Source: an uncultured Sphingomonadaceae bacterium (GTDB taxonomy: Bacteria; Pseudomonadota; Alphaproteobacteria; Sphingomonadales; Sphingomonadaceae). Taken from it: a DNA stretch of 64,000 bases. Under the pieces are notes generated by a model. The model had not been told where the DNA came from. It saw nothing but the letters and a program-made list of their open reading frames with translations, and ran no database searches. The translations under genes and the position numbers were made by a program. Every line of letters starts with the position of its first letter. Position 1 is the stretch's first letter. Location of the stretch: contig CALKJZ010000025.1 in assembly GCA_937995515.1 (NCBI GenBank), positions 1 to 64,000 on the forward strand. The letters run 5' to 3'. This document shows positions 6,605 to 21,713 of the stretch, one piece after another.

Positions 6605-7273
6605 TTGCCCAAGGCCATGCCCGATTGCCAGACCATGCCCTATCCGCAGCCGCTCTACCTTGCCCGCCATGCCGAGACATGGTTCAATCGCGTCCGCCGG
6701 ATGCAGGGCAACGAGGCGCACACGCCGCTCACCCGCGCCGGGATTGCCCAGGCCGAGGCCATGGGCAGGGCGCTGGCCCGGCATTTCGAGGCGACGGGCG
6801 AGCCGCTGCCGCAGCTGTGGTCCTCGCCGGCAGGCCGCGCGCGCCAGACGGCCGCAATCGTCGCCGAGCATCTGGGCACCGACTATTTTGCCGTGCGGAT
6901 CGACCCGCGGCTGCGCGAGATCGAGGTCGGGCGCTGGGAGGGGCGCGACTATGCCGAAATCATCGCAACCGAGGGTGAGATCATCGATGCTGAGCACCGG
7001 TTGTTCCGCATGCCGATCCCCGGCGGCGAACATTATGCCGACATCGCACGGCGGCTGGCCGCCTGGCTGGCCGATGCGGGCGAGGGGCCGGCACTCGTCA
7101 TCAGCCACGGCATGACGACGCGCGTGCTGCGCGGGATGCTGGTCGGCGGGCCGGCCTATCATGGCGTGCCGGTTGCCGCGGATGCGCCGCAGGGCTCGGT
7201 GGTCCGGATCGCCGGGGGTGCCGAGGAGCTGCTGCTGGAAGGGGAAGGCGCGCTCGGGCCGCGGGTCGCCTGA
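6605..7273 (+). CDS. histidine phosphatase family protein
   Basis: [11 protein letters not shown] (RHG motif), [41 protein letters not shown]. Confidence 0.88.
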
Positions 7274-7450
7274 GCCTGCCATTGACCGATCATCTGCCAT
7301 TTTTGCGGCGCCACTGGGAGAAATTCCGACACGTCGGCCAGCGGGCAGGGCACCCGAACCAAGACAACCCCTTGAATCCGCTCGGTCTCAATCGCTGAAA
7401 CCGGTTGGCACTATTGTTGCCAGGAGAAAACCACGGGGCGGATGGACCAT

Positions 7451-7480
7451 CCCGGCCAACACAGGCCCGGCCAACACAGG
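7451..7480. repeat. 2 x 15-bp tandem repeat (cccggccaacacagg)
   Basis: perfect tandem copies 7451-7465 and 7466-7480, just upstream of the ATG at 7492. Confidence 0.95.
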
Positions 7481-7491
7481 AAACGGAACAA

Positions 7492-8108
7492 ATGACCAAG
7501 TTCTTGCTGGCGCTTCCCCCGCTCGCGGCAGCCGCGCTCGCAAACGCCAGCCCGCTGCCGACCTACCCGACACCCGGCACGGTGAACCCCGCCGACCACA
7601 GCTTCACCGCCGCGGCCACCGGCCCGGTCGTTGCCTATTTCGGCGGCCACTCGGCCGGCTTCACCAGCGTGCTGGCCTCATCGTCAACGCGGTCGATCTC
7701 GGGGTCACCGGCCTCAGCAACGAGACGACGCCGATCGGCACCTCGTTCGATTTTGGCGGGCTGATTGTCAACGCCGGTGACAGTCTCGTGTTCTCCATTG
7801 ACGTCACCAACACCGGAGACCGCTTCTTCTCGAAGCGGTCGCTCAACCCCGACGGCATCACCCACATCTTCTCCGCCCCCTGTGCCGGCGGCCTCGTTGA
7901 CCCCGGCGGTATCATCCCGGCCGGCACCTTTATGGGCGTCGAGGATCTGCTCGGCGGTGGCGACGCCGACTATGACGACCTCAAGTACGTCTTCACCAAC
8001 CTCAGTCGCGGCGTCGTTCCCGAGCCTGCGACCTGGGCCCTCCTGATCGCAGGCTTCGGCCTCGTCGGCTGGAGCCTCCGCCGCCGCAGGGCCGCCCTGA
8101 TCGCCTGA
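7492..8108 (+). pseudogene. PEPxxWA-CTERM exported protein, interrupted by an apparent 1-bp frameshift near 7675-7680
   Basis: MTKFLLALPPLAAAALANA...GHSAGFTSVL in one frame; GLIVNAVDLGV...[31 protein letters not shown] continues in another; adding one G in gtgctgg|cctc restores VLGLIVN. Confidence 0.75.
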
Positions 8109-8143
8109 CGCACTTGCCGGCCAGGGGGCCGGGGGCAGGGGAG

Positions 8144-8175
8144 GGGCCGGGTGACCGGGGCACCCGGCCCTTTTT
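8144..8175 (+). terminator. rho-independent terminator
   Basis: GGGCCGGGTG-accgggg-CACCCGGCCC-TTTTT: perfect 10-bp stem followed by T5, between convergent genes. Confidence 0.9.
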
Positions 8176-8239
8176 CATGCCCGGTCGGGACCGGAGGGAC
8201 GCCGCGTCACCATGTGGCGCAGCCCCCCGGTCTTCAGCT

Positions 8240-8941
8240 TCAGGCGCTGGCGAGCCGACGGCGACGCGCGCTCGCGCCCACCAGCCCGAAGCCTGCGATC
8301 AGCAGCGCCCAGCTTGCCGGCTCGGGCACCGTCCCGCCGGCCGGGATCGCCGCGAGCGACCAGTTGTCGATGCCCCAGCTTTCGTCGGCGCCGCCCTGGA
8401 AGCCCGCCCCGCCGAAACGGAAGGTGACGATGAAGTCGCTGTCGGTGTGGGGGATCAGGAAATTGTGGCTGACCACGGTGTCGGGCCAGAAGGAGCCGAC
8501 GAGGTTGCTGCCGGTGGAGATGACCACGCCCGGCCCCACACCGAAGATGGAGCCAGAGCCGTTGTTGACCGTCCATTCGTAGCTGGTGCCACCGATGGTC
8601 ACGTAAAGGATGTCAGGCGCGGGAGCACCATTCAGCGAATCCCAGCTGTCCTGGAACAGCAGGTCGAACTTGAGGCGAAGCGCCGTGTGGGCGCCCAGGC
8701 CATAGGCTGCAACTTGCGTGGTGGTGTTGGTCACCTTGTGGAGAGATTTGGTGCCGAAACCGGGGACGGACCCTGAAGAAGAATCAATGAAGCCGTCTGT
8801 CGTTGCGACCGACAAGAACGAAGACGGGAAGGGTCCAATGACTTCGAAGGGATCCTCGCTGTCGAACGAGGTCGACCAGACATTCACGTCGGCGGCCGCA
8901 GCCTGGGCGGCGAGCGCGAGGGCGGCAAGGCCCGCAGCCAT
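8240..8941 (-). CDS. PEPxxWA-CTERM sorting domain-containing exported protein
   Basis: signal peptide [17 protein letters not shown] and C-terminal [29 protein letters not shown]. Confidence 0.88.
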
Positions 8942-10432: not shown

Positions 10433-11770
10433 ATGGTCGTCACCCGTTTCGCGCCCTCGCCCACCGGCCTTCTTCATGTCGGCAATGTGCGAACGGCACT
10501 CCTCAACTGGCTTTTTGCCCGCAAGCACGGCGGGCGCTTCCTGCTGCGGCTCGACGATACCGACACCGCGCGCTCCACCGAGGCCTTTGCCGAGGCCATC
10601 CGCGCCGATCTCGCCTGGCTTGGCATGGCGCCCGATGCGGAGGTCCGCCAGTCTGACCGGCTGGCGCGCTACGAGGCGGCGCTCGAGCGGCTCGCGGCCG
10701 CCGGGCACGCCTATCGGGCCTATGAGACCCCGGAGGAGCTGGACCTCCGGCGCAAGGTCCAGCTCGCGCGCGGCCTGCCGCCGGTCTACGACCGCGCAGC
10801 GCTCCGGCTGACCGAGGAGGACCACGCGCGCCACGCCGCCGAAGGGCGCCGGCCGCACTGGCGCTTCCGGCTTTCGCCCGACCTGCCGCACGCGTGGGAC
10901 GATCTGGTGCGCGGCCCGTCTCACATCGATCCGGCCTCGCTCTCCGATCCGGTCATCCGTCGCGCCGACGGCTCCTGGCTCTACATGCTGCCCTCCGTCG
11001 TCGACGATATCGACATGGGCATCAGCCATGTGATCCGCGGCGAGGACCATGTGACCAACACCGGCATCCAGCTGCAGATGTTCGCAGCGCTGGGCGCCCG
11101 GCCTCCGGCGTTCGGCCATGCGGCGCTGCTCGCCGGTGCCGACGGCGCCCTTTCCAAGCGGCTCGGCTCGCTGGGCGTGGCCGATCTGCGCGCGCGGGGG
11201 ATCGAGCCGCTGGCCGTCAGGGCGCTGCTGGCGCGGCTGGGCACGTCGCTGCCCGTCGAGCCGGTGACCTCGGACGCCCCGCTCATCGAGCGCTTCGAGC
11301 TCGCCCATCTCGGCCGCGCAACGGCGCGGTTCGACGAGGCCGAGCTTGCCGCGCTCAACGCGAAGATCCTGCACCAGCTGCCCCATGCAGCCGTCGCGGA
11401 CCGGCTGACGCTGAGCGAGGCCGAGTGGCTGGCTGTCAGGGCCAATGTCGCAACGATTGCCGAGGCGGAAGCCTGGAAGGCGGTGTTTGCCGGCGAGGTG
11501 GGCGGCGCCCCCGATCCGGCCGACGCCGCCTTTCTCGAACGGGCGGCGCGGATCCTCGAGGGGCTCGAGATGGGGCCCGGGACGTGGGGCGAACTCACGG
11601 CATCTCTCAGCGCCGAGACCGGCCGCAGGGGCCGCGCGCTGTTCATGCCGCTGCGCCTCGCGCTCACCGGGCGCGACCACGGGCCCGACATGGCCGTGCT
11701 GCTGCCGCTGATCGGCCGCGAACGCGCGCTCGCCCGCCTGCGCGCTCAGGCCGCAAACCGGAGCGGATAG
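10433..11770 (+). CDS. gltX: glutamate--tRNA ligase
   Basis: [44 protein letters not shown] (HIGH region), GALSKRLGS (KMSKS-like). Confidence 0.95.
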
Positions 11771-13104
11771 CTGCGGAAGAAGGGCGTGCCGCCGCCCTCG
11801 GGCGGCCCGGCCTCGGCCAGCCCTTCGCACGCGATGAGCGGGGCGAGCATGGCCGGAAGCAGGGCGCGGTTGACCGCATCGCCCCAGCAGCGGTGCAGCC
11901 CCTCGCCCCACAGGCGGTAGGCCTCCCACGGCCGGTCGGTGCGGAACCGCTCCGGCTCGGGCACGGCTGCCCCGTCGTGCATGGCCGACAGCAGCACCGC
12001 CAGCACCATCCGCCCCGCCGGCACCTCCTCGGTGCCAAGCCGGGTCGGGCGCGGTGTGCGGCGGTAGAGGAACGGCGTCATCGGGTTGAACCGCAGCGCT
12101 TCCCACAGGAAGGGGGCAAGGGCCGCCTCGTCGCCGGCCTGTGCGGCCGCCCGGGCGGCGGCCAGCTGGCCCGGCCAGCGCAGCAGCTCCTGCACCGCAA
12201 GGCAGGCGGCCTTGGAAAGGGTGGGAATGGCGCCGATGACGAGGCCGAGGAGGCTGGCGACGAGGCTGTCGGGGTCGGGCGCGGCCCCGGCGCCCTGCCC
12301 GCGGGCCATGGCGCGGCCGATGAGCGTCTCGGGGCCCGCGCCGGCCATGCTGGCGCGGATGGCCGCGCGGGTGCGCTCGGCGGCGGCAAGCGCCCCGGCC
12401 TCCACCCGCGGATCGGCGCCAAGGTCGGAGAAGAGATAGAAGAAGAGGATCGTCGAATCGGCGATCAGCTGCGCGGGCGTAGCGCTGATCCCGAACCACT
12501 CGCATGCCATCCGGGCGGGGATGCGCGCGCTGAGCGCAGGCACGAGGTCGATCCGGGCAGCACCGCCTTCCGCTTCCCGTTCCGCCCCGGCTTCGGCCCG
12601 GGCGCGGTCGACGGCGGCCAGGGCTTCTGCCCGCGCCATGGCCGTCACCCGCCCGAGATCCTGCGGGTCCACGAGCGAATCGACGGCCGCGCGCCCGCGC
12701 CGATATTCGGGCCCATCCTGCAGCCCGAGAAAGAAGTCGCATCCGCCGGTCAGCGCGCGCATGCGCGGGCCGTAGACCACTTCGAACTCCGCCTCGCGGG
12801 CTAGCACCTCGGCCACATCATCGGCGCGGGTGACGATGAGCGTGCCGTCAGCCGGGTAGCAGCGCACGAGGTTCTGCCGGAGCGTGAGCCGCGGGCGGAC
12901 AAGGCGCAGCACGGCTGCGGCATCGCGCAGCGTGCGGCTGTTGCCGATGACCGCGCGCAGGGCCGCCTCGCGCACCCCCTCGCTGGCGGCAAGGCCGCGC
13001 AGCACGCCGGCAAGGCCGGCGATGGCCGGGCCCAGCCGGTCGACTCCCGGCGGCGGCTGCCGCGCGGCGATCGGCCGGATGGGCGGGTCCTCGGGCATCG
13101 CCAT
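11746..13104 (-). CDS. cytochrome P450, atypical
   Basis: EALR (ExxR) helix [11 protein letters not shown] matches F-x2-G-x-H-x-C-x-G with W for F; I-helix GAIPT lacks the acidic residue. Confidence 0.88.
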
Positions 13105-13108
13105 CTCC

Positions 13109-14743
13109 TCAGGTCGGGTCCACCATGCCGTCGGCGATCATGCGCAGCGCCGTCATCGAGGGCTGGAAGAAATAGTCGCCGCCGCGCGTTGCAACGAACT
13201 GCGGCAGGCCCCCGGCGAGAAAGGGGGGGTTCGTGCGGTCCGCCGCGGAAACCACGAACCGGTCGCCCTTCCGATGCGCGCCGACAATCGGGCAGCTGTC
13301 GTTGCCGGCATCGAAGTCGAGCCCGTAGTTCAGCCACTGCTGCTGCACGAACTCGAACTGGCGGAACAGGTCGGCGCAATAGGCGAGGAGCACGATGCCA
13401 TGTTCGCCGGCCGGATCGTCGCGCCGGCCATAGGGCAGGCCCCGCCGCAGGATCCGGCGCCGGTCGTTCAAGACCGAGCCCATGCGCGCCCCGGGCCTTG
13501 CGCTGCGGAACCAGGGGTCGAGCATGTCGCGCGTGTTCGCGCGGCGGATGTGCGCCGTCACCGGGCAGTGCCGTCCGTCCGGGTCGCCGGCGAAGGTGAA
13601 GACGGCAAGGAAGCGCCGCTGTTCCTCCGGCTGCATCTGCGCCATGCGCCGGCGGGCCTCCTGCCAGCGCTCCCAGTCCGGGGCATGCACAAGCGGGATG
13701 CCGTCGCGCCAGCGCCCGGCCATGCGCGCCATCAGCGTCTCGCGCGCGATCGCGGGGCTTGGAAGCGACCAGAGCCGGGCGAGCTCTTCCGCGCGCGCGG
13801 CAATCCAGCTGTCCCAGGCCGCAATGTCCTGGTGCAGCTTGCGCAGCGCGAAGAAGGTGCCGTTGCGGCTGAAATCGAGCGGCAGGCCCATGGTGGCCAC
13901 CTCCTGCCCCTCGTCGGGCCAGCCGAGGATGAACTCGCCGGTCCGCAGCGGCCGCCACCGGCCCTGCCCGTCGACGGCGCCCTGGCCCTCGGCGCGCAGG
14001 CGCGTGGTCGCCTCGTCGTACTGGCCCTCGAACACGGGGTTGGAAATACCGTCGCGGAAGCCGAAGTGCTCGGTCGGCACGAAGCGGTGCGTGCCGTCCG
14101 GGGCGGTTTCCGAAAGCGCGGCCATGTCCTGCCAGCGCGGGTTTGCCCCGCGATGGCCCTCGAGGAGACGCACCCGGCCTTCGGTTGCAAGGGCGAGCGC
14201 GATCACCTCGTCGGTCAGCCGCCCGAGATCCGGGTGGGGGCCGCCATCCGCTGCCGCGGCCGCATGCAGCAGCACGAGAATGTGGACGCGGCGCGGCGCA
14301 TCGCGTGCCACGCGCCACACCGGGTCCCAGCCCTCGTGCCCGTCTGCCGGGTCTGGAAGCATCCGGTTGCGGCCGATGTCGTCGCCAAGCACCGGCGCGC
14401 GCGCGGCCATGCCGTCGATGAACGGATCGGGCATGGAGCGAAGCGTGCGGGTGGGCACGTCGAGCGCCAAAAGCCCCCAGAAGGTGAAGGCGATGTTGAG
14501 CGTCACCACCGGCCGGCGGACCTGGTGCGGAGCCGGCGCCGCGCCCGGTGGCGCCCAGGGGTTCGCGGCAGTCACCTTCGGCAGGAGCCGGGCGAGAAAC
14601 GCCCGCCCGGCCTCGGAGTCGCGCACAGTGGGGCCCACCTCGAAGAGGAGGATCCGGCCGAAGGGAAAGCCGCGCGGCGAATAGGCGTCGAGGATCCCGC
14701 CCTGCAGGTCGCCGCGCTCGAGCTGGACCGGGGCCGAGGTCAT
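13109..14743 (-). CDS. Dyp-type heme peroxidase
   Basis: GFRDGISNPVFEGQ (GxxDG), CPVTAHIRRANTRDM (proximal His region), RRILRRGLPYG, PIVGAHRKGDRFVV. Confidence 0.9.
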   Translation of the reverse strand: MTSAPVQLERGDLQGGILDAYSPRGFPFGRILLFEVGPTVRDSEAGRAFLARLLPKVTAANPWAPPGAAPAPHQVRRPVVTLNIAFTFWGLLALDVPTRTLRSMPDPFIDGMAARAPVLGDDIGRNRMLPDPADGHEGWDPVWRVARDAPRRVHILVLLHAAAAADGGPHPDLGRLTDEVIALALATEGRVRLLEGHRGANPRWQDMAALSETAPDGTHRFVPTEHFGFRDGISNPVFEGQYDEATTRLRAEGQGAVDGQGRWRPLRTGEFILGWPDEGQEVATMGLPLDFSRNGTFFALRKLHQDIAAWDSWIAARAEELARLWSLPSPAIARETLMARMAGRWRDGIPLVHAPDWERWQEARRRMAQMQPEEQRRFLAVFTFAGDPDGRHCPVTAHIRRANTRDMLDPWFRSARPGARMGSVLNDRRRILRRGLPYGRRDDPAGEHGIVLLAYCADLFRQFEFVQQQWLNYGLDFDAGNDSCPIVGAHRKGDRFVVSAADRTNPPFLAGGLPQFVATRGGDYFFQPSMTALRMIADGMVDPT

Positions 14744-15732
14744 CCGCCTTCGCCGGGCGGGCTGAGCAGCGGTGCGGCGAGCGTGCCTCCGTCGGAGCGG
14801 ATCACACCGGGCTGCTGGCTTGCCGCCGGATCGGTGTCGGCGGGCCTCGTCTCGCCGAGGAAGGCGGCAAAAGCCGCATGGAGCGCCTCCGGCGGGTCGA
14901 GCTGGTGGGCCTCGACAAAGGCGGCGAACCGCTGCTGCACGAACAGGGCCTTCAGCACCGAGGGCAGGTCGCTCTCCGGAAAGGGCGGGAAGGGCCTCGC
15001 ACCCGCACGCGACAGCTCCCCGAGACCGAGCCAGAGGACGAGCAAGGCGGCCGCAAGGCCGATCGCGAGCCACGCCAGCAGGCCGGCCACGCCGGCGAGC
15101 AGGCCCGCGGCCACCACGGCAGCCGCTGCCGCGGCCGGACGTGCCGCAAGCCGGGCAAGGCCCGGCCCGCCAAGCGGCGGCTCGCCATCATAGTAGCCGT
15201 TGAAGCTCATGGTCGTCTCGATCTGGCCGCGGGCCAGGTAGCGCGCGAAGCTGTGGCCGTCGATGACCGCCTCGAACCCCTCGCAGGCCGAAAAAATGGC
15301 GCGCATCTCCTCTCCGGCCACGGCCCAGAGGTGCTCGGCCCAGGATGCAAGCCCGCCATCGGGCGCATCCGTCCGGTCGATGTCGGCCGCAAGCAGGAGC
15401 CACGGGCGCGAGAGCACGTCATAGGGGGGCTGGGACTTGAGCGGCCGGCGCAGCACGATGTTGAGGATCGGATCAACCGGCATCCGCCCGCCCCACATCG
15501 GCTGGTCGATGACCACAAGCCGCGCAAAATGGGTCCGCCGGCAGCGCGCGAACGGGCTCATGAAACCCGCGGCGTCGGTTTCGGGATTCTGGCGGGCGGT
15601 GGGCAGGAGCGCGAGCTCCTCGCGCAGGTGGTGCGACCAGGGGCGCAGGGGCTCGCCCTCCCGGGCCCTGAGGCCGGTGCGCACCGGATAGAGGCCGGTC
15701 AGGAACAGGTGGCCGCCGTCGAGCGTCGGCAT
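14740..15732 (-). CDS. unknown protein with central hydrophobic segment, in DyP/P450 operon
   Basis: ORF start MPTLDGGHLFLTGLYPVRTG; ATGA overlaps with both neighbours; hydrophobic AAAAAVVAAGLLAGVAGLLAWLAIGLAAALLVLWLGLG. Confidence 0.8.
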   Translation of the reverse strand: MPTLDGGHLFLTGLYPVRTGLRAREGEPLRPWSHHLREELALLPTARQNPETDAAGFMSPFARCRRTHFARLVVIDQPMWGGRMPVDPILNIVLRRPLKSQPPYDVLSRPWLLLAADIDRTDAPDGGLASWAEHLWAVAGEEMRAIFSACEGFEAVIDGHSFARYLARGQIETTMSFNGYYDGEPPLGGPGLARLAARPAAAAAAVVAAGLLAGVAGLLAWLAIGLAAALLVLWLGLGELSRAGARPFPPFPESDLPSVLKALFVQQRFAAFVEAHQLDPPEALHAAFAAFLGETRPADTDPAASQQPGVIRSDGGTLAAPLLSPPGEGG

Positions 15733-16397
15733 CAGGCAGCGCCGGTGGCCCGCGCGCCCCAGCGCGCACGCACGCGCTCGATCCGGTTCCGGTCGGCCCT
15801 GCGGGTGTCGTTGGAGGCAACGGGGGCAAAGCCGGGCGTGCCGAGATCGTTGTGCACCAGCGCAAGCTCCTGCACCCAGGCCTTTCGGAAGGCCGCCGGC
15901 CCCTTCGCATGCGCCTCTGCCAGCCGCAGCACCGCACGCCGGACTCGGAGGGCCGACTTGATGTCGCGCTGGGCGGCTCCGGGAGTGGCATTGTAATAAT
16001 AATCCGTATCGATCTGGTTGGCGCGAATGTAGGCCTTGAAGGGCGAGATCGGGATCGACTTGGGATACTTGGTGGAAGCCCACCAGAAACTGTCGAGCCC
16101 TGAGGGTATTCCATCCGCAAAGGCGTCGATATACTGGTCCCACGTGCCGTTGAAGTTCGAGCAGAACAGCATGTAATCATTGGCGAGCTGCTCCGGGGGC
16201 TGGCCGAAATCCGGCCAGCTGCCGCGGCGGATGACCGCCCAGCGCGCGAAGTGGATGATGGAGAGGCCAAGCAGCCCGGCAAGGCGCTGCGGGAAGGCGC
16301 GTGCCGCGTGGAACAGGAGCACATTCACCCGGGTGCGCCATGGGCGCATCGGGGTCAACACATTCATCGCATAGGCCTTGCCGGCCACGTTCGACAT
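15732..16397 (-). CDS. unknown protein, first gene of DyP/P450 operon
   Basis: MSNVAGKAYAMNVLTPMRPWRTRVNVLLF...; stop overlaps the start of the next gene. Confidence 0.8.
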   Translation of the reverse strand: MSNVAGKAYAMNVLTPMRPWRTRVNVLLFHAARAFPQRLAGLLGLSIIHFARWAVIRRGSWPDFGQPPEQLANDYMLFCSNFNGTWDQYIDAFADGIPSGLDSFWWASTKYPKSIPISPFKAYIRANQIDTDYYYNATPGAAQRDIKSALRVRRAVLRLAEAHAKGPAAFRKAWVQELALVHNDLGTPGFAPVASNDTRRADRNRIERVRARWGARATGAA

Positions 16398-16484: not shown

Positions 16485-17261
16485 ATGGTGATTGATGCTG
16501 CCCTTGCTGCGCTCCTTCCGCTCGGGCTCCTGCTCGCTGCGCTGCTCGGGCTCGCGGTGGGCAGCCTCATCGCCACGCTTGCGCTGCGCTGGCCGCGGGG
16601 GGAGACGCTTGCCGGCCGCTCCCGCTGCGACAGCTGCGGCGCGAAGCTCGCCGCACGCGATCTGGTGCCGCTTCTCTCCTTCGCGCTGCTGCGCGGCCGG
16701 TGCCGGGCCTGTGGTGCGCGGATCGACTGGCGCCAGCCGGCCATCGAGGCGGCAGCGGCCCTTCTTGCGATGATGGCCTGGGCGGCGGCACCCGGGCCCG
16801 CGGGCGTGGCGGGCGCGCTGTTCGGCTGGATGCTACTTGCGATGGCGGTGCTCGATGCCGAGCATTTCTGGCTGCCCGACCGGCTGACCCTCCCGTTTCT
16901 CGCGCTGGGGCTCGCCCTCGGCCTCGGCGACCTGCCCGAGCGCCTGCTGGGTGCGGGCCTGGGCGTCGGCCTGATGCTGCTGCTGCGCGCAGGCTTCCAG
17001 CAGCTTTTCCACCGCGAGGGGCTGGGCCTTGGCGACGTGAAGCTGATGGGCGGGCTTGGGGCATGGTTGAGCTGGAGCAGCCTGCCGCCGTTATGGCTGC
17101 TTGCCTCTCTTGTCGGTCTTGGAGCCGCCATGTTCCGTGTTGTCCATGCCCGGCGCACGGGCGGGCCGGTGGCAGCCGCACCAGAGCCCATCCCGTTCGG
17201 CGCCTGCCTTGCCGTTGCCGCCTTCCCGCTCTGGCTCCTGCAGTCGGCAGGGCGCTGGTGA
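16485..17261 (+). CDS. prepilin peptidase (A24 leader peptidase)
   Basis: GSLIATLALRWPRGE, CDSCGAKLAARDLVPLLS, CRACGARIDWRQPAIE, GLGLGDVKLMGGLGAWL. Confidence 0.92.
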   Translation: MVIDAALAALLPLGLLLAALLGLAVGSLIATLALRWPRGETLAGRSRCDSCGAKLAARDLVPLLSFALLRGRCRACGARIDWRQPAIEAAAALLAMMAWAAAPGPAGVAGALFGWMLLAMAVLDAEHFWLPDRLTLPFLALGLALGLGDLPERLLGAGLGVGLMLLLRAGFQQLFHREGLGLGDVKLMGGLGAWLSWSSLPPLWLLASLVGLGAAMFRVVHARRTGGPVAAAPEPIPFGACLAVAAFPLWLLQSAGRW

Positions 17262-17314
17262 GCAGGCGATGTGCCCGGCCGCGCCGCGCACCGCGCGGCC
17301 GCCCGATGGGCCCG

Positions 17315-17365
17315 CCCGATTCCGGCAGCCGCCCGATTCCGGCAGCCGTCCGATTCCGGCAGCCG
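17315..17365. repeat. 3 x 17-bp tandem repeat (cccgattccggcagccg)
   Basis: 17315-17331, 17332-17348, 17349-17365 (one mismatch in the third). Confidence 0.95.
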
Positions 17366-17466
17366 TTGCAACAAAAGTGCAACACTCCTCCATCAAAGGG
17401 CGCCGGTGAGCGCACCGGCCGCCAGGCCCTGCCGCAGGGGCGCGCCCTCCCGGCAGGCTTGACCGC

Positions 17467-17510
17467 GCGTGGCTTGCGATCGCGTGGCTTGCGATCGCGT
17501 GGCTTGAGAT
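17467..17510. repeat. 3 x 15-bp tandem repeat (gcgtggcttgcgatc) abutting the gspC start codon
   Basis: 17467-17481, 17482-17496, 17497-17510 (last copy diverges into the ATG); two GCGATCGC octamers. Confidence 0.93.
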
Positions 17511-18096
17511 GAGGACGATGCCCATCACCCTTTTCGGCCAGCGCCTGCATCTCGGCCACGCCATCCTCGCCCTGATGCTTGCGGCCGCGGCCGTTCTTGC
17601 AGCCCGCCTTGTCGTGCTGCTGCGCGCGCCGCTGCCGCCGCTGCCGCCGATTGTCGAGCCGGCGGTCGCCGACCGGGCGCTGCTCGCGCGCCGCGACCCA
17701 TTCTTTGCCCGGGAGGCCGCCGGCGAAGATCTGCCTGTCACTGCGCTGCCGCTGTCGCTGCACGGGGTGCGCACCGACGCTGCAACCGGCCGCGGCTCGG
17801 CCATTATCGGCCTTGCCGATGGACAGCAGGCGGTGTTTGTGGTCGGCGAGGCGGTCACCGAGGGGGTCGCCCTTGCGGCCATCGCCATCGACCATGTGGT
17901 GCTCGACCGGGGAGGAACCCGCGAGGCGCTGTGGCTTGCAGATGCAGGTGGACGGGCCGCCGGCGAGGCCTCGCCTCAGCCTCCGCCATTTCCTGCGGCT
18001 GGCCCGGACGTGGCAGCGCCGGCGCCGCCCCTGCCGGAGGCGCTCCAGCCCGGCGCCGACGTGCGGGCGGCGCCGGAGGAAGACCAGACACCATGA
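17509..18096 (+). CDS. gspC: type II secretion system protein C
   Basis: N-terminal TM and PLSLHGVRTDAATGRGSAIIGLADGQQAVFVVGEAV homology region; first of gsp operon. Confidence 0.85.
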   Translation: MRTMPITLFGQRLHLGHAILALMLAAAAVLAARLVVLLRAPLPPLPPIVEPAVADRALLARRDPFFAREAAGEDLPVTALPLSLHGVRTDAATGRGSAIIGLADGQQAVFVVGEAVTEGVALAAIAIDHVVLDRGGTREALWLADAGGRAAGEASPQPPPFPAAGPDVAAPAPPLPEALQPGADVRAAPEEDQTP

Positions 18097-20186
18097 CCGC
18101 TGCCCGGCCGCGTGCGGCCCGCCTCGCCGTCCTTTCCCGCCTCGCCCCTGCCTGTCTTGTGGGGCTTGCATCGCTCGCGCTGGCCGTGCCGCCTGCGGCT
18201 GCGCAGACGGTGGTGAACCTGCGCGATGCGGATATCCGCGCCTTCATCGACGATGTCGCGCGGGTGACAGGCGTGTCCTTCATCGTCGATCCGCGGGTCC
18301 AGGGCCGCGTCTCCGTCGTCTCCGACCGGCCGCTTTCGCGCCAGGGCTATTTCGAGCTGTTTCTCGCGACGCTGCGTGCCAATGGCTTCATCGCCGTGCC
18401 GGTGGGCTCGGGCCAGTACCGGATCCAGCCTGCCGAGGCGGGCGCGGGCCCGGCCGAACGCGGCGGCGCGCGCTTTGCCACCGCCATCATCCCGCTCACC
18501 AACATCGACGCGCAGTCGGCCATCGATTCCCTGCGCCCGCTTGCCTCGCGCAGCGCCAGCCTGGCTGCCAACCGCGCCGGCAATTCCATTGTCGTGACGG
18601 ATTTTGCCGACAACATCACCCGGATTCGCGAGGCGTTGCGGCAGATCGACCAGGATCGCGCGGCAACCCGCATCGTCCCCCTGCGCAACGCCGGGCCGAC
18701 CGAACTGTCGCGCGCGCTCACCCAGCTTCTTGCGCCGCGCCGCGGCGAGGCGGACTCGCGCGCGACCGCCGTGGTCGTGCCCGTCGAAGGCTCGAACGCG
18801 GTGATGATCCGCGGCGAGGCCGGGCAGGTGGCCCGCGCCGCCGCGCTCGCCGAGGAGCTGGACCGGCAGGCGGTCGGCGGCCTCGAGACAAGGGTCATCT
18901 ATCTCGACCATGCCGATGCCGCAGCCATCGTGCCGGTGCTGCAGACGCTTGTCGGCCAGGCGGTCACCCAGGGGCTGCCGCAGGGCCCGGGCGGCGGCGC
19001 GCCCGAACTGCGCCGGGCCGGGGCGCGCGCGCAGGAGGGCGGCCAGCCGGCCGCTCCGCCGCCGACCCCGGGGGCAGCCGACCTCGGGGTCGCGGCCGGC
19101 CAGCCGCGCCGGGCGGTGATCGCCCGCTACGAGGGCGCCAATGCGGTGGTGATTTCCGCCCCGCGCGAGCTCATGCGCGATCTCGGCGAGGTGGTCCGCC
19201 AGCTCGACCGACAGCGCCAGCAGATCCAGGTCGAGGCGATCATCGTCGAGATTTCCGATACCGCTGCGCGCCAGCTGGGCGTGCAGTTCCTCTTCTCGGG
19301 CACGAACCCCGGGTCCATCCCCTTCTTTGCCACCAATTATTCCAACGCGGTGCCCAACATCCTCGCGGTCGCCGGCGCGGTTGCCGCCCAGCGCGGCGTG
19401 ATCGAGGGGCCGCTTGCCAATGCCTTCGAGACGGCAGCCGCCAATGCCCTTCTCGGCCCCAACCGCCCGCTCGGCGGCACCGGCGGCTATGGCGGCGGCA
19501 TCGGCTCCAGCGCCGTCTTCGGCTTCGTGATCAACGCCGTGCAGAGCGATGCGGCCTCGAACATCCTCTCGACCCCGTCGGTCCTCACCCTCGACAACCA
19601 GCCGGCGCGGATCCTCGTGGGCCAGGAGATTCCGGTGACGACCGGCGAGGCGCTGGGCCAGAATCTCGAGAACAGCTTCCGCACCGTGCAGCGGCAGGAC
19701 GTGGGCATCCAGCTCGCGGTCAAGCCGCAGATCACCCAGGGCGGCAACATCCGCCTCGACATCAAGCAGACCGTCTCGTCGATCGCCAACATCGTCGACC
19801 GCGACTTCGTGCTCAACAAGCGCGAGATCGAGACCTCGGTCACGGTCGGCAACGGGGAGATTGTCGCCCTCGGCGGCCTGCTCGACGAGAACGAGCAGCG
19901 GCGGCTCGAAAAGGTGCCCGGGCTTGGCGACATCCCGGGCGTTGGCGAGCTGTTCCGCTCGCGCACCCGCCAGCGGCAGAAGACCAATCTCATGGTGTTC
20001 ATCCGGCCCAGCATCGTTGAGTCCCGCGAGCAGGCGGCCGAGCTGACGGCTGGCCGCTGGGATGGCATCCGCACCGAGCAGGAGGCGCGCGCCGGCTTTT
20101 CCGCGCTTGACGCGCTCGCCTACCAGTATCTGCGCGCCGCGCCGCCCGACCGGCCCCGCCCCTTCCCGCCGCCCGAGGCCCCCTGA
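18093..20186 (+). CDS. gspD: type II secretion system secretin GspD
   Basis: VNLRDADIRAFIDDVARVTGVSFIVDPRVQGRVSVVS (N domain), VEAIIVEISDTAARQLGVQF, STPSVLTLDNQPARILVGQEIPVTTGE. Confidence 0.96.
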   Translation: MTAARPRAARLAVLSRLAPACLVGLASLALAVPPAAAQTVVNLRDADIRAFIDDVARVTGVSFIVDPRVQGRVSVVSDRPLSRQGYFELFLATLRANGFIAVPVGSGQYRIQPAEAGAGPAERGGARFATAIIPLTNIDAQSAIDSLRPLASRSASLAANRAGNSIVVTDFADNITRIREALRQIDQDRAATRIVPLRNAGPTELSRALTQLLAPRRGEADSRATAVVVPVEGSNAVMIRGEAGQVARAAALAEELDRQAVGGLETRVIYLDHADAAAIVPVLQTLVGQAVTQGLPQGPGGGAPELRRAGARAQEGGQPAAPPPTPGAADLGVAAGQPRRAVIARYEGANAVVISAPRELMRDLGEVVRQLDRQRQQIQVEAIIVEISDTAARQLGVQFLFSGTNPGSIPFFATNYSNAVPNILAVAGAVAAQRGVIEGPLANAFETAAANALLGPNRPLGGTGGYGGGIGSSAVFGFVINAVQSDAASNILSTPSVLTLDNQPARILVGQEIPVTTGEALGQNLENSFRTVQRQDVGIQLAVKPQITQGGNIRLDIKQTVSSIANIVDRDFVLNKREIETSVTVGNGEIVALGGLLDENEQRRLEKVPGLGDIPGVGELFRSRTRQRQKTNLMVFIRPSIVESREQAAELTAGRWDGIRTEQEARAGFSALDALAYQYLRAAPPDRPRPFPPPEAP

Positions 20187-20189
20187 GCG

Positions 20190-21713
20190 ATGGAGACGCC
20201 GCCCTTTCTGCGCCGCCAGGGCGAGGCGCCAGACCCTTCCCTCGCGCGCGTGCCGCCCGCCCGGCCGCTGCCCTATGCCTTCGCCAGGCGGGCCGGCGTG
20301 CTCCTCCTGCCCGACGAGCCGGGGATCGTTGCGCTTTCGCCTTCGGCCACCGCAGCGGGCATCGTCGAGGCGCGCCGGGTGGCCGGCCGGCCGCTCAGGC
20401 CACGGCCGCTCTCGGCAGAGGCCTTCGACCGGCTGCTTTCCGAGACCTATGCGATGGACGGGCTTTCGGCGGCCGCCGATGCTGCAGCAAGCGCGCCGCT
20501 TGCGGATCTCGCAGCCGATACCGCCGACCTCCTCGACAATGACGATGCCGCACCTGTCATCCGGCTGATCAATGCGATCGTGGCCCAGGCGGTGCAGCAG
20601 GGGGCCTCCGACATCCACATGGAGCCGGGCGAGCAGGGCATGGTGGTGCGGCTGCGGCGCGACGGGGTGATGGAGGAGGCGGTGCGGCTCCAGCCGGAGC
20701 TCGCGCCGATGGTTGTCTCGCGCGTCAAGGTGATGGCGCGGCTCGACATCGCGGAGAAGCGGCTGCCGCAGGATGGCCGCATCTCGCTGCAGCTCGGCGC
20801 CCGCCAGCTCGACGTGCGCGTCTCGACCCTGCCGGCGCGCGGCGGCGAGCGGGTGGTGATGCGCATCCTCGACCAGTCAGCCGTGGCCCTGTCGCTTGCC
20901 GACCTCGGCCTCGACGAGCCGACCATGGCGCGGCTGGTCGAGGCGCTCTCCCAGCCAAACGGCATGGTGCTGGTGACAGGCCCGACGGGTGCGGGCAAGA
21001 CCACTACCCTCTACGCCGCGCTGCGGCTCCTGAACGATGGCAGGCGCAACATCCTGACTGTCGAGGACCCGGTCGAATATGCGGTCGCCGGCGTGGGCCA
21101 GACGCAGGTCGACCCGCGCGTCGGGCTCAGCTTCGCAGCCGGGCTCCGCGCCATCCTGCGGCAGGACCCGGACGTGGTGCTCGTGGGCGAGATCCGCGAC
21201 CGGGAGACGGCCGAGATCGCCGTGCAGGCGGCGCTTACCGGGCATCTCGTGCTCTCGACAGTGCACGCCAACTCGGCTGCTGGCGCGATCACCCGGCTGC
21301 GCGATTTCGGGGTCGAGCCGTTCCTGATCGCCGCCACCCTGCGCGCCGTGGTGGCGCAACGCCTCGTGCGGCTGGTGTGCGGCGCCTGCGCCGGGTCGGA
21401 AGCGCTCGCCGCGCCGCTCGCACAGCGGCTCGGCCTCGCGCCAGGCCTTCTGGTGGCTGCGGCGCACGGCTGCCCCGCCTGCCGCATGACCGGCTTTTCC
21501 GGCCGGCAGGGTCTTTTCGAGCTCATCGCCATCGATGGCGAGGTGCGGGCGCTGGTGAACGAGGGCGCATCCGAAGCGCGGATCGAGGCAGCGGGCCTCA
21601 CCCGGTCGCTCGCGGAGTCGGCCCGGGCGCTGGTGGTCCAGCGGCGGACCACGCCCACGGAAGTGGTCTCGCTGTTCCAGCGCGACGCCGGCCGGGCTTT
21701 GGCGGCCGAATGA
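20190..21713 (+). CDS. gspE: type II secretion system ATPase GspE
   Basis: GPTGAGKTTTLYAAL Walker A, ILRQDPDVVLVGEIRDRETAEIAVQAALTGHLVLSTVHANS. Confidence 0.96.
   Translation: METPPFLRRQGEAPDPSLARVPPARPLPYAFARRAGVLLLPDEPGIVALSPSATAAGIVEARRVAGRPLRPRPLSAEAFDRLLSETYAMDGLSAAADAAASAPLADLAADTADLLDNDDAAPVIRLINAIVAQAVQQGASDIHMEPGEQGMVVRLRRDGVMEEAVRLQPELAPMVVSRVKVMARLDIAEKRLPQDGRISLQLGARQLDVRVSTLPARGGERVVMRILDQSAVALSLADLGLDEPTMARLVEALSQPNGMVLVTGPTGAGKTTTLYAALRLLNDGRRNILTVEDPVEYAVAGVGQTQVDPRVGLSFAAGLRAILRQDPDVVLVGEIRDRETAEIAVQAALTGHLVLSTVHANSAAGAITRLRDFGVEPFLIAATLRAVVAQRLVRLVCGACAGSEALAAPLAQRLGLAPGLLVAAAHGCPACRMTGFSGRQGLFELIAIDGEVRALVNEGASEARIEAAGLTRSLAESARALVVQRRTTPTEVVSLFQRDAGRALAAE

Follow-up and report, generated by a model that had tools for sequence, protein, structure and literature searches.

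A conserved A-B-DyP gene module with an exchangeable second heme partner: a candidate unit for hydroperoxide chemistry in bacteria

A stretch of 64,000 nucleotides from an uncultured Sphingomonadaceae bacterium (GenBank assembly GCA_937995515.1, contig CALKJZ010000025.1, positions 1 to 64,000; referred to as the window) contains a minus-strand operon of four translationally coupled genes: two encoding proteins of unnamed families, A (15732..16397; 221 aa) and B (14740..15732; 330 aa), followed by a DyP-type heme peroxidase (13109..14743; 544 aa) and a cytochrome P450 (11746..13104; 452 aa). This operon was found to be one form of a widespread modular system, larger than the unit first described in an earlier note on the same DNA: A-B-DyP looks like the core, the P450 is a frequent addition, and a catalase-related heme protein occupies the place of the P450 in other genomes. 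From these sequence features, we consider the chance about even that the operon specifies a membrane-tethered two-heme complex, which would handle hydroperoxides without an electron-transfer chain.

Organization and conservation of the module

The gene junctions were read directly. Genes A and B share a single base (TGATG at 15732), B and DyP overlap by ATGA (14740-14743), and the DyP stop codon is separated from the P450 start codon by 4 bp (13105..13108; TGA-ggag-ATG) resembling a ribosome site. The earlier note had described four coupled minus-strand genes with the 14740-14743 overlap and the 4-bp gap, all of which were confirmed, and an ATGA at 15732, which was not; the start of gene B was corrected to the ATG at 15732, giving 330 aa. 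When 85,462 genomes were scanned with protein A, 262 relatives were obtained, and the best 80 loci were retained, from Alpha-, Beta-, and Gammaproteobacteria and one Verrucomicrobia metagenome-assembled genome. B adjoined A in 80/80 loci, and DyP came next in all 76 whose contig extends that far. A P450 of the same family followed DyP in 54 loci (one truncated by the contig end), approximately 20 stopped at DyP, and two were undecided; a search after DyP in the P450-less loci revealed neither a divergent P450 nor a catalase-related gene. The gene order recurred with near-zero gaps (medians of 0, 2, and -1 nt in 75, 71, and 49 loci, respectively), and the pairwise distances of A, B, DyP, and P450 were correlated (Mantel r 0.66-0.92, p<=0.001), fitting the expectation for a unit inherited together. 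It is therefore near certain that these coupled genes form a conserved module, far beyond chance. A Granulicella plasmid carries the three-gene form with Fur and katG nearby, and A-B-DyP thus appears as the core. In the neighborhoods, A-B-DyP was constant and the P450 optional, about a quarter of the homologous loci having A-B-DyP only.

No ferredoxin or reductase family recurred within ~8 kb among the homologous loci, and the lack of such an adjacent gene, pointed out previously for the window, was confirmed there and is general. A GST-like fifth gene lay directly 3' of the P450 in 16 P450-bearing loci and in one further genome.

Pseudomonadota genomes were also searched with A and then with a fused relative, and 26 matching loci were inspected. 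In these genomes, chosen by homology to A, DyP was adjacent or fused in 26/26. The second partner was a P450 in 15, a catalase-related protein in seven, neither in four, and both in none (P=5e-4 for zero overlap under independence). Single polypeptides of ~1,400-1,630 aa were found in nine loci: six of the 26 genomes and three annotated plasmids (as a query against plasmids, A alone gave one distant match, and the fused homologue was required). Their order is P450, a domain, a membrane hairpin, an A-like domain, and DyP, and public annotation names them solely "cytochrome P450" or "Dyp-type peroxidase domain-containing protein"; no reductase domain was detected in them by Pfam. A DyP-catalase fusion is encoded by genome L134, and B is fused to A, or A-like domains to DyP, in further genomes. 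The P450-DyP polypeptides, together with the DyP-catalase fusion, imply physical and functional association, and the claim that all four genes work as a unit was borne out by co-occurrence, coupling, and fusion.

Each of the nine P450-DyP fusions is immediately preceded by a gene for a TPR protein (L096:1958-3733, L097:9199-10980, L104:5838-7601, L105:5827-7515, and L106:5705-7336; also L118, L119, L123, and L126). Its TPR part is homologous among them, and its N-terminus is nucleotidyl-cyclase (in rhizobia) or SARP-like; it is perhaps a dedicated regulator. At L104, a Crp/Fnr gene is also present downstream. In genome G200 (L090/L136), the A-homologue match spans two TAG codons, and two separate A-like open reading frames are present, one of them less similar. 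Elsewhere in the window, a run of type II secretion/prepilin-peptidase-like genes (16488-21713), conserved upstream in close relatives, diverges from gene A, and a pair of oppositely oriented genes around 8.1 kb (7161-8941) encodes two proteins with PEP-CTERM-type C-termini.

Characteristics of the heme proteins and of A and B

The DyP of the window matched Pfam Dyp_perox_C (PF20628; 3e-7) and NCBIfam TIGR01413 (6e-27; 94.8 bits, slightly below the cut-off of 100.5), and the motifs GFRDG, AHIR, and RRILRRGLPYG, listed in the earlier note, were all found. The distal Asp231 (in GXXDG), proximal His398, and distal Arg433 were invariant in 77 sequences and aligned with the heme pocket of DrDyP; with this domain and these residues, the protein belongs to the DyP-type peroxidase superfamily. 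Neither a signal peptide nor a Tat signal was seen in the sequence. The EfeB deferrochelatase (iron-chelatase) reading was rejected (TIGR01412, 18 bits against 428; no Tat signal). Asp-Pro-Thr (window 13109-13120) stands at the very C-terminus of 74 of the 77 homologues, as if it were a docking or capping element. The closest solved structure is that of DrDyP, DR_A0145 of Deinococcus radiodurans (PDB 8re2 and 8re3; E ~4e-30). On plasmid 3 of this bacterium, a DyP gene, which we take to be DR_A0145, adjoins an A-like gene and a catalase-family gene; this system differs from the window module in having a catalase-related partner instead of a P450, and one A-like protein instead of A and B. When purified alone, DrDyP was inactive and in a low-spin state at pH 7.5, and the authors of the study speculated that it is controlled in vivo by interacting proteins (PMC10820274); the protein was studied alone, and the operon and the catalase are unmentioned in the text of that paper. 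The A-like proteins would be the obvious candidates for these interacting proteins, and this may be the reason why DrDyP-like enzymes appear inactive when studied alone.

The P450 of the window exceeded the cut-off of Pfam p450 (2e-7) and contains the ExxR motif (EALR; E335xxR338) and Cys-ligand loop (Cys406) of this superfamily. These motifs and the I-helix GAIPT had been noted before, and all were found. In the family, the Cys ligand, ExxR, and heme-loop Gly were kept in 69/69 members. The I-helix acid position (G291-x-x-P294-T295 in the window) is occupied by Pro in 68 members and by Ala in the remaining one; the absence of the acid, noted earlier for the window protein, therefore extends to the whole family (acid in 0/69). 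All four further P450s of the source genome carry it: HDT, NET, HDT, and NDT. In five members, Glu occurs two positions earlier, possibly a displaced acid. By sequence, the P450 was remote from the CYP152 peroxygenases (NF053744; 11.7 bits, with a cut-off of 600; E 0.07), and no curated model of the CYP74, CYP5, or CYP8 hydroperoxide isomerases was among its matches. The nearest characterized P450s were actinobacterial enzymes of the TxtE type (4tpn and 5d40; E ~1e-12), and the best NCBIfam match was TIGR04515 (2e-13; 50 bits against a cut-off of 343); with this score and a Cys ligand present, membership in the P450-derived glycosyltransferase activators was rejected.

Proteins A and B had no match over the cut-off in Pfam, NCBIfam, or PADLOC. 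A is highly conserved, at 60-79% identity across proteobacterial classes. A and B are paralogues: their profiles aligned with a probability of 99.4 (hhalign; E 9e-21, 145 columns), compared with <0.5 for P450 and DyP control profiles, and an earlier, shallower comparison had found them co-linear (P 0.006). Rows with the profile of the fused N-terminal domain were dropped (one aligned column), and no homology to the domains of DyP itself was detectable by profile comparison. A and B have in common a strand, a helix, "HFARW-hhI", a strand "LLFxSNFDG", a helix, and "FKxYIRxxQhxT". The AlphaFold2 model of B (pLDDT 80) has a beta-alpha-beta-beta-alpha layout, to be compared with the beta-alpha-beta-beta-alpha-beta order of a ferredoxin-like fold; with a weak model of A and no significant fold match (see below), such a domain is a likely but putative assignment for both proteins. 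B has in addition an inserted membrane hairpin (approximately residues 193-245) and a helical C-terminal part; the two hydrophobic helices are found in most B members and not in the A of the window, while the insert is missing from some distant B proteins. The notion of the two orphans as structural or membrane partners was supported by this hairpin.

The catalase-related partners have an R-xxx-Y heme-ligand motif in common, and their profile matched MAP-2744c (3e4w; E 1e-10) and coral allene oxide synthase (1u5u; E 1e-4). In the long catalase-related proteins at L098:8833-10029 and L099:4847-6118, Asn stands in place of the catalase-type His of the HAK motif (GNTK); this His is retained in the plasmid copies. 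Beside the catalase-type modules, two genomes carry an oleate hydratase gene (68% identity), Brucella anthropi, D. radiodurans, and Acinetobacter lwoffii (three classes or phyla) have homologous 3-hydroxyacyl-CoA dehydrogenases, and acyl thioesterases (two cases) and a patatin-like lipase were also found. GMC oxidoreductases (choline-dehydrogenase-like and cholesterol-oxidase-like; L098:3589-5580 and L099:9581-11326) adjoin two catalase-type modules with a fused B-A, and are a possible source of H2O2.

Proposed mechanism and alternative explanations

We infer the following complex, topology, and order of steps. A and B, being paralogous and probably ferredoxin-like, would pair, and the hairpin of B would anchor them in the cytoplasmic membrane, facing the cell interior. 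There they may couple a cytoplasmic DyP with the second heme enzyme and supply a membrane-derived substrate. DyP would perform the initial, peroxidase- or dioxygenase-like oxidation; the P450, without the acid for the usual proton relay, would then rearrange, cleave, or use the resulting (lipid) hydroperoxide, the catalase-related protein may do so in its slot in other genomes, and the GST-like protein may act last in some lineages. Among heme folds, two unrelated ones are known to convert fatty-acid hydroperoxides, that of P450 (CYP74) and that of the coral catalase-related enzymes (PMC5617202), and this shared chemistry would be the simplest reason for the exchange of the two folds here. The peroxide-driven reading of the earlier note gains some support from this exchange and from unsaturated-fatty-acid genes at some catalase-type modules. 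On these grounds, hydroperoxide chemistry has roughly equal chances of being right or wrong, and a lipid substrate is put somewhat below even.

Several observations weigh against this scheme. The Thr of the acid-alcohol pair is retained in the P450 (66/69), and loss of the acid alone is no proof of peroxide use. By profile, the catalase-related family is nearer to ordinary catalases and MAP-2744c than to coral allene oxide synthase, and the exchange could accordingly mean peroxide disposal. No lipid gene recurred beside the P450-type modules, so that the lipid reading of the window operon is by analogy. Approximately 20 loci have neither second heme partner. The AlphaFold2 model of A was weak (pLDDT 65), and Foldseek searches with the A and B models gave no significant fold match (Dabb/EthD-type folds at E 0.4-1.5). 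A lipoxygenase was not found in the source genome, a result that is uninformative because the family was matched in no control genome either.

One alternative is conventional chemistry, in which a reductase-dependent P450 monooxygenase acts on some small molecule with borrowed, unlinked ferredoxins, and DyP oxidizes a pathway intermediate or removes H2O2 from uncoupling. The invariant Thr in the near P450 family fits this, as do five Fer2-domain proteins in the source genome and the resemblance to TxtE-type actinobacterial P450s, which use redox partners. However, unlike TxtE and other bacterial P450s, the window enzyme has Pro for the I-helix acid, a link to DyP, and no redox partner. It does not have the marks of a monooxygenase with a linked redox partner, since the acid is lost in 69/69 and no redox gene recurs nearby, although unlinked ferredoxins exist and could still sustain such activity. 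The acid is kept by the other P450s of the genome, no Pfam reductase domain occurs in the fusions, and a catalase-related protein, incapable of a monooxygenase role, could hardly take the place of such an enzyme; we regard this explanation as unlikely. A peroxide defense unit, in which DyP and its partner destroy membrane-formed hydroperoxides and the product is irrelevant, is similarly improbable. The catalase-related partner, the peroxidase nature of DyPs, Fur and katG near the Granulicella module, and the GST-like gene all agree with it, but it would be odd for a P450 to stand in for an enzyme that scavenges peroxide, the DyP from one such module was inactive at pH 7.5 (PMC10820274), and the dedicated cyclase/TPR or SARP-like genes upstream of nine/nine fusions fit a specific pathway better. 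Finally, that the P450 is a non-catalytic partner stabilizing DyP or A/B, like the DesVIII-type glycosyltransferase activators suggested by its best NCBIfam match, is very improbable, since the score is low and the residues that these activators can do without (Cys, ExxR, and the heme-loop Gly) are invariant. An anti-phage defense reading was also considered and rejected.

Comparison with known systems and implications

In the literature searched, from which subscription journals were mostly out of reach, no paper described DyP with a P450 or catalase-related partner in one operon or protein, in agreement with the earlier note, which did not recognize the set as one already described. If the proposed scheme holds, the module resembles two kinds of system (PMC13049297), the fungal linoleate dioxygenase-P450 fusions (DOX-CYP, PpoA type) and the cyclooxygenase/CYP cascade, in that two heme centers are combined in a single polypeptide or a linked pair and the second is a P450 working without a reductase. 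It differs in that the first heme protein is DyP, not an animal-type peroxidase/cyclooxygenase, and in that the P450 is placed first in its fusions; the fungal enzymes have no counterpart to the paired A/B domains and membrane hairpin, and the reaction of the module is a proposed one. Coral AOS-LOX and HPL-LOX (PMC5617202) likewise use a fused catalase-related heme protein as the second enzyme, and P450 and catalase folds interchange across lineages; the lipoxygenase is, however, absent from the module, with DyP instead, and its catalase-related proteins are distantly related. Because neither the module nor the fusions contain a dioxygenase or lipoxygenase domain, only DyP, the module resembles two-heme oxylipin cascades in logic but is no member of them. 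DyP-encapsulin systems also combine DyP with a partner gene; since no encapsulin-like family recurs beside the module, and the conserved DPT C-terminus belongs to DyP itself, an encapsulin cargo reading was rejected.

The cellular role of DyP peroxidases is an open question, and the fixed partners, natural fusions, and partner swap of this DyP branch point to concrete substrates. Two unnamed, widely conserved protein families (A and B) have been defined, and the P450-DyP fusions are candidate self-sufficient P450s for biocatalysis. A bolder proposal, which we hold to be rather doubtful, is that the module is a third, independently evolved two-heme synthase of the oxylipin type, in which DyP would oxygenate a membrane unsaturated lipid offered by A/B and the acid-less P450 or catalase-related protein would make a specific product, possibly a signal. 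If true, this would provide the first physiological substrate for a large DyP branch, and the P450/catalase swap between plants and corals would recur inside one bacterial system.

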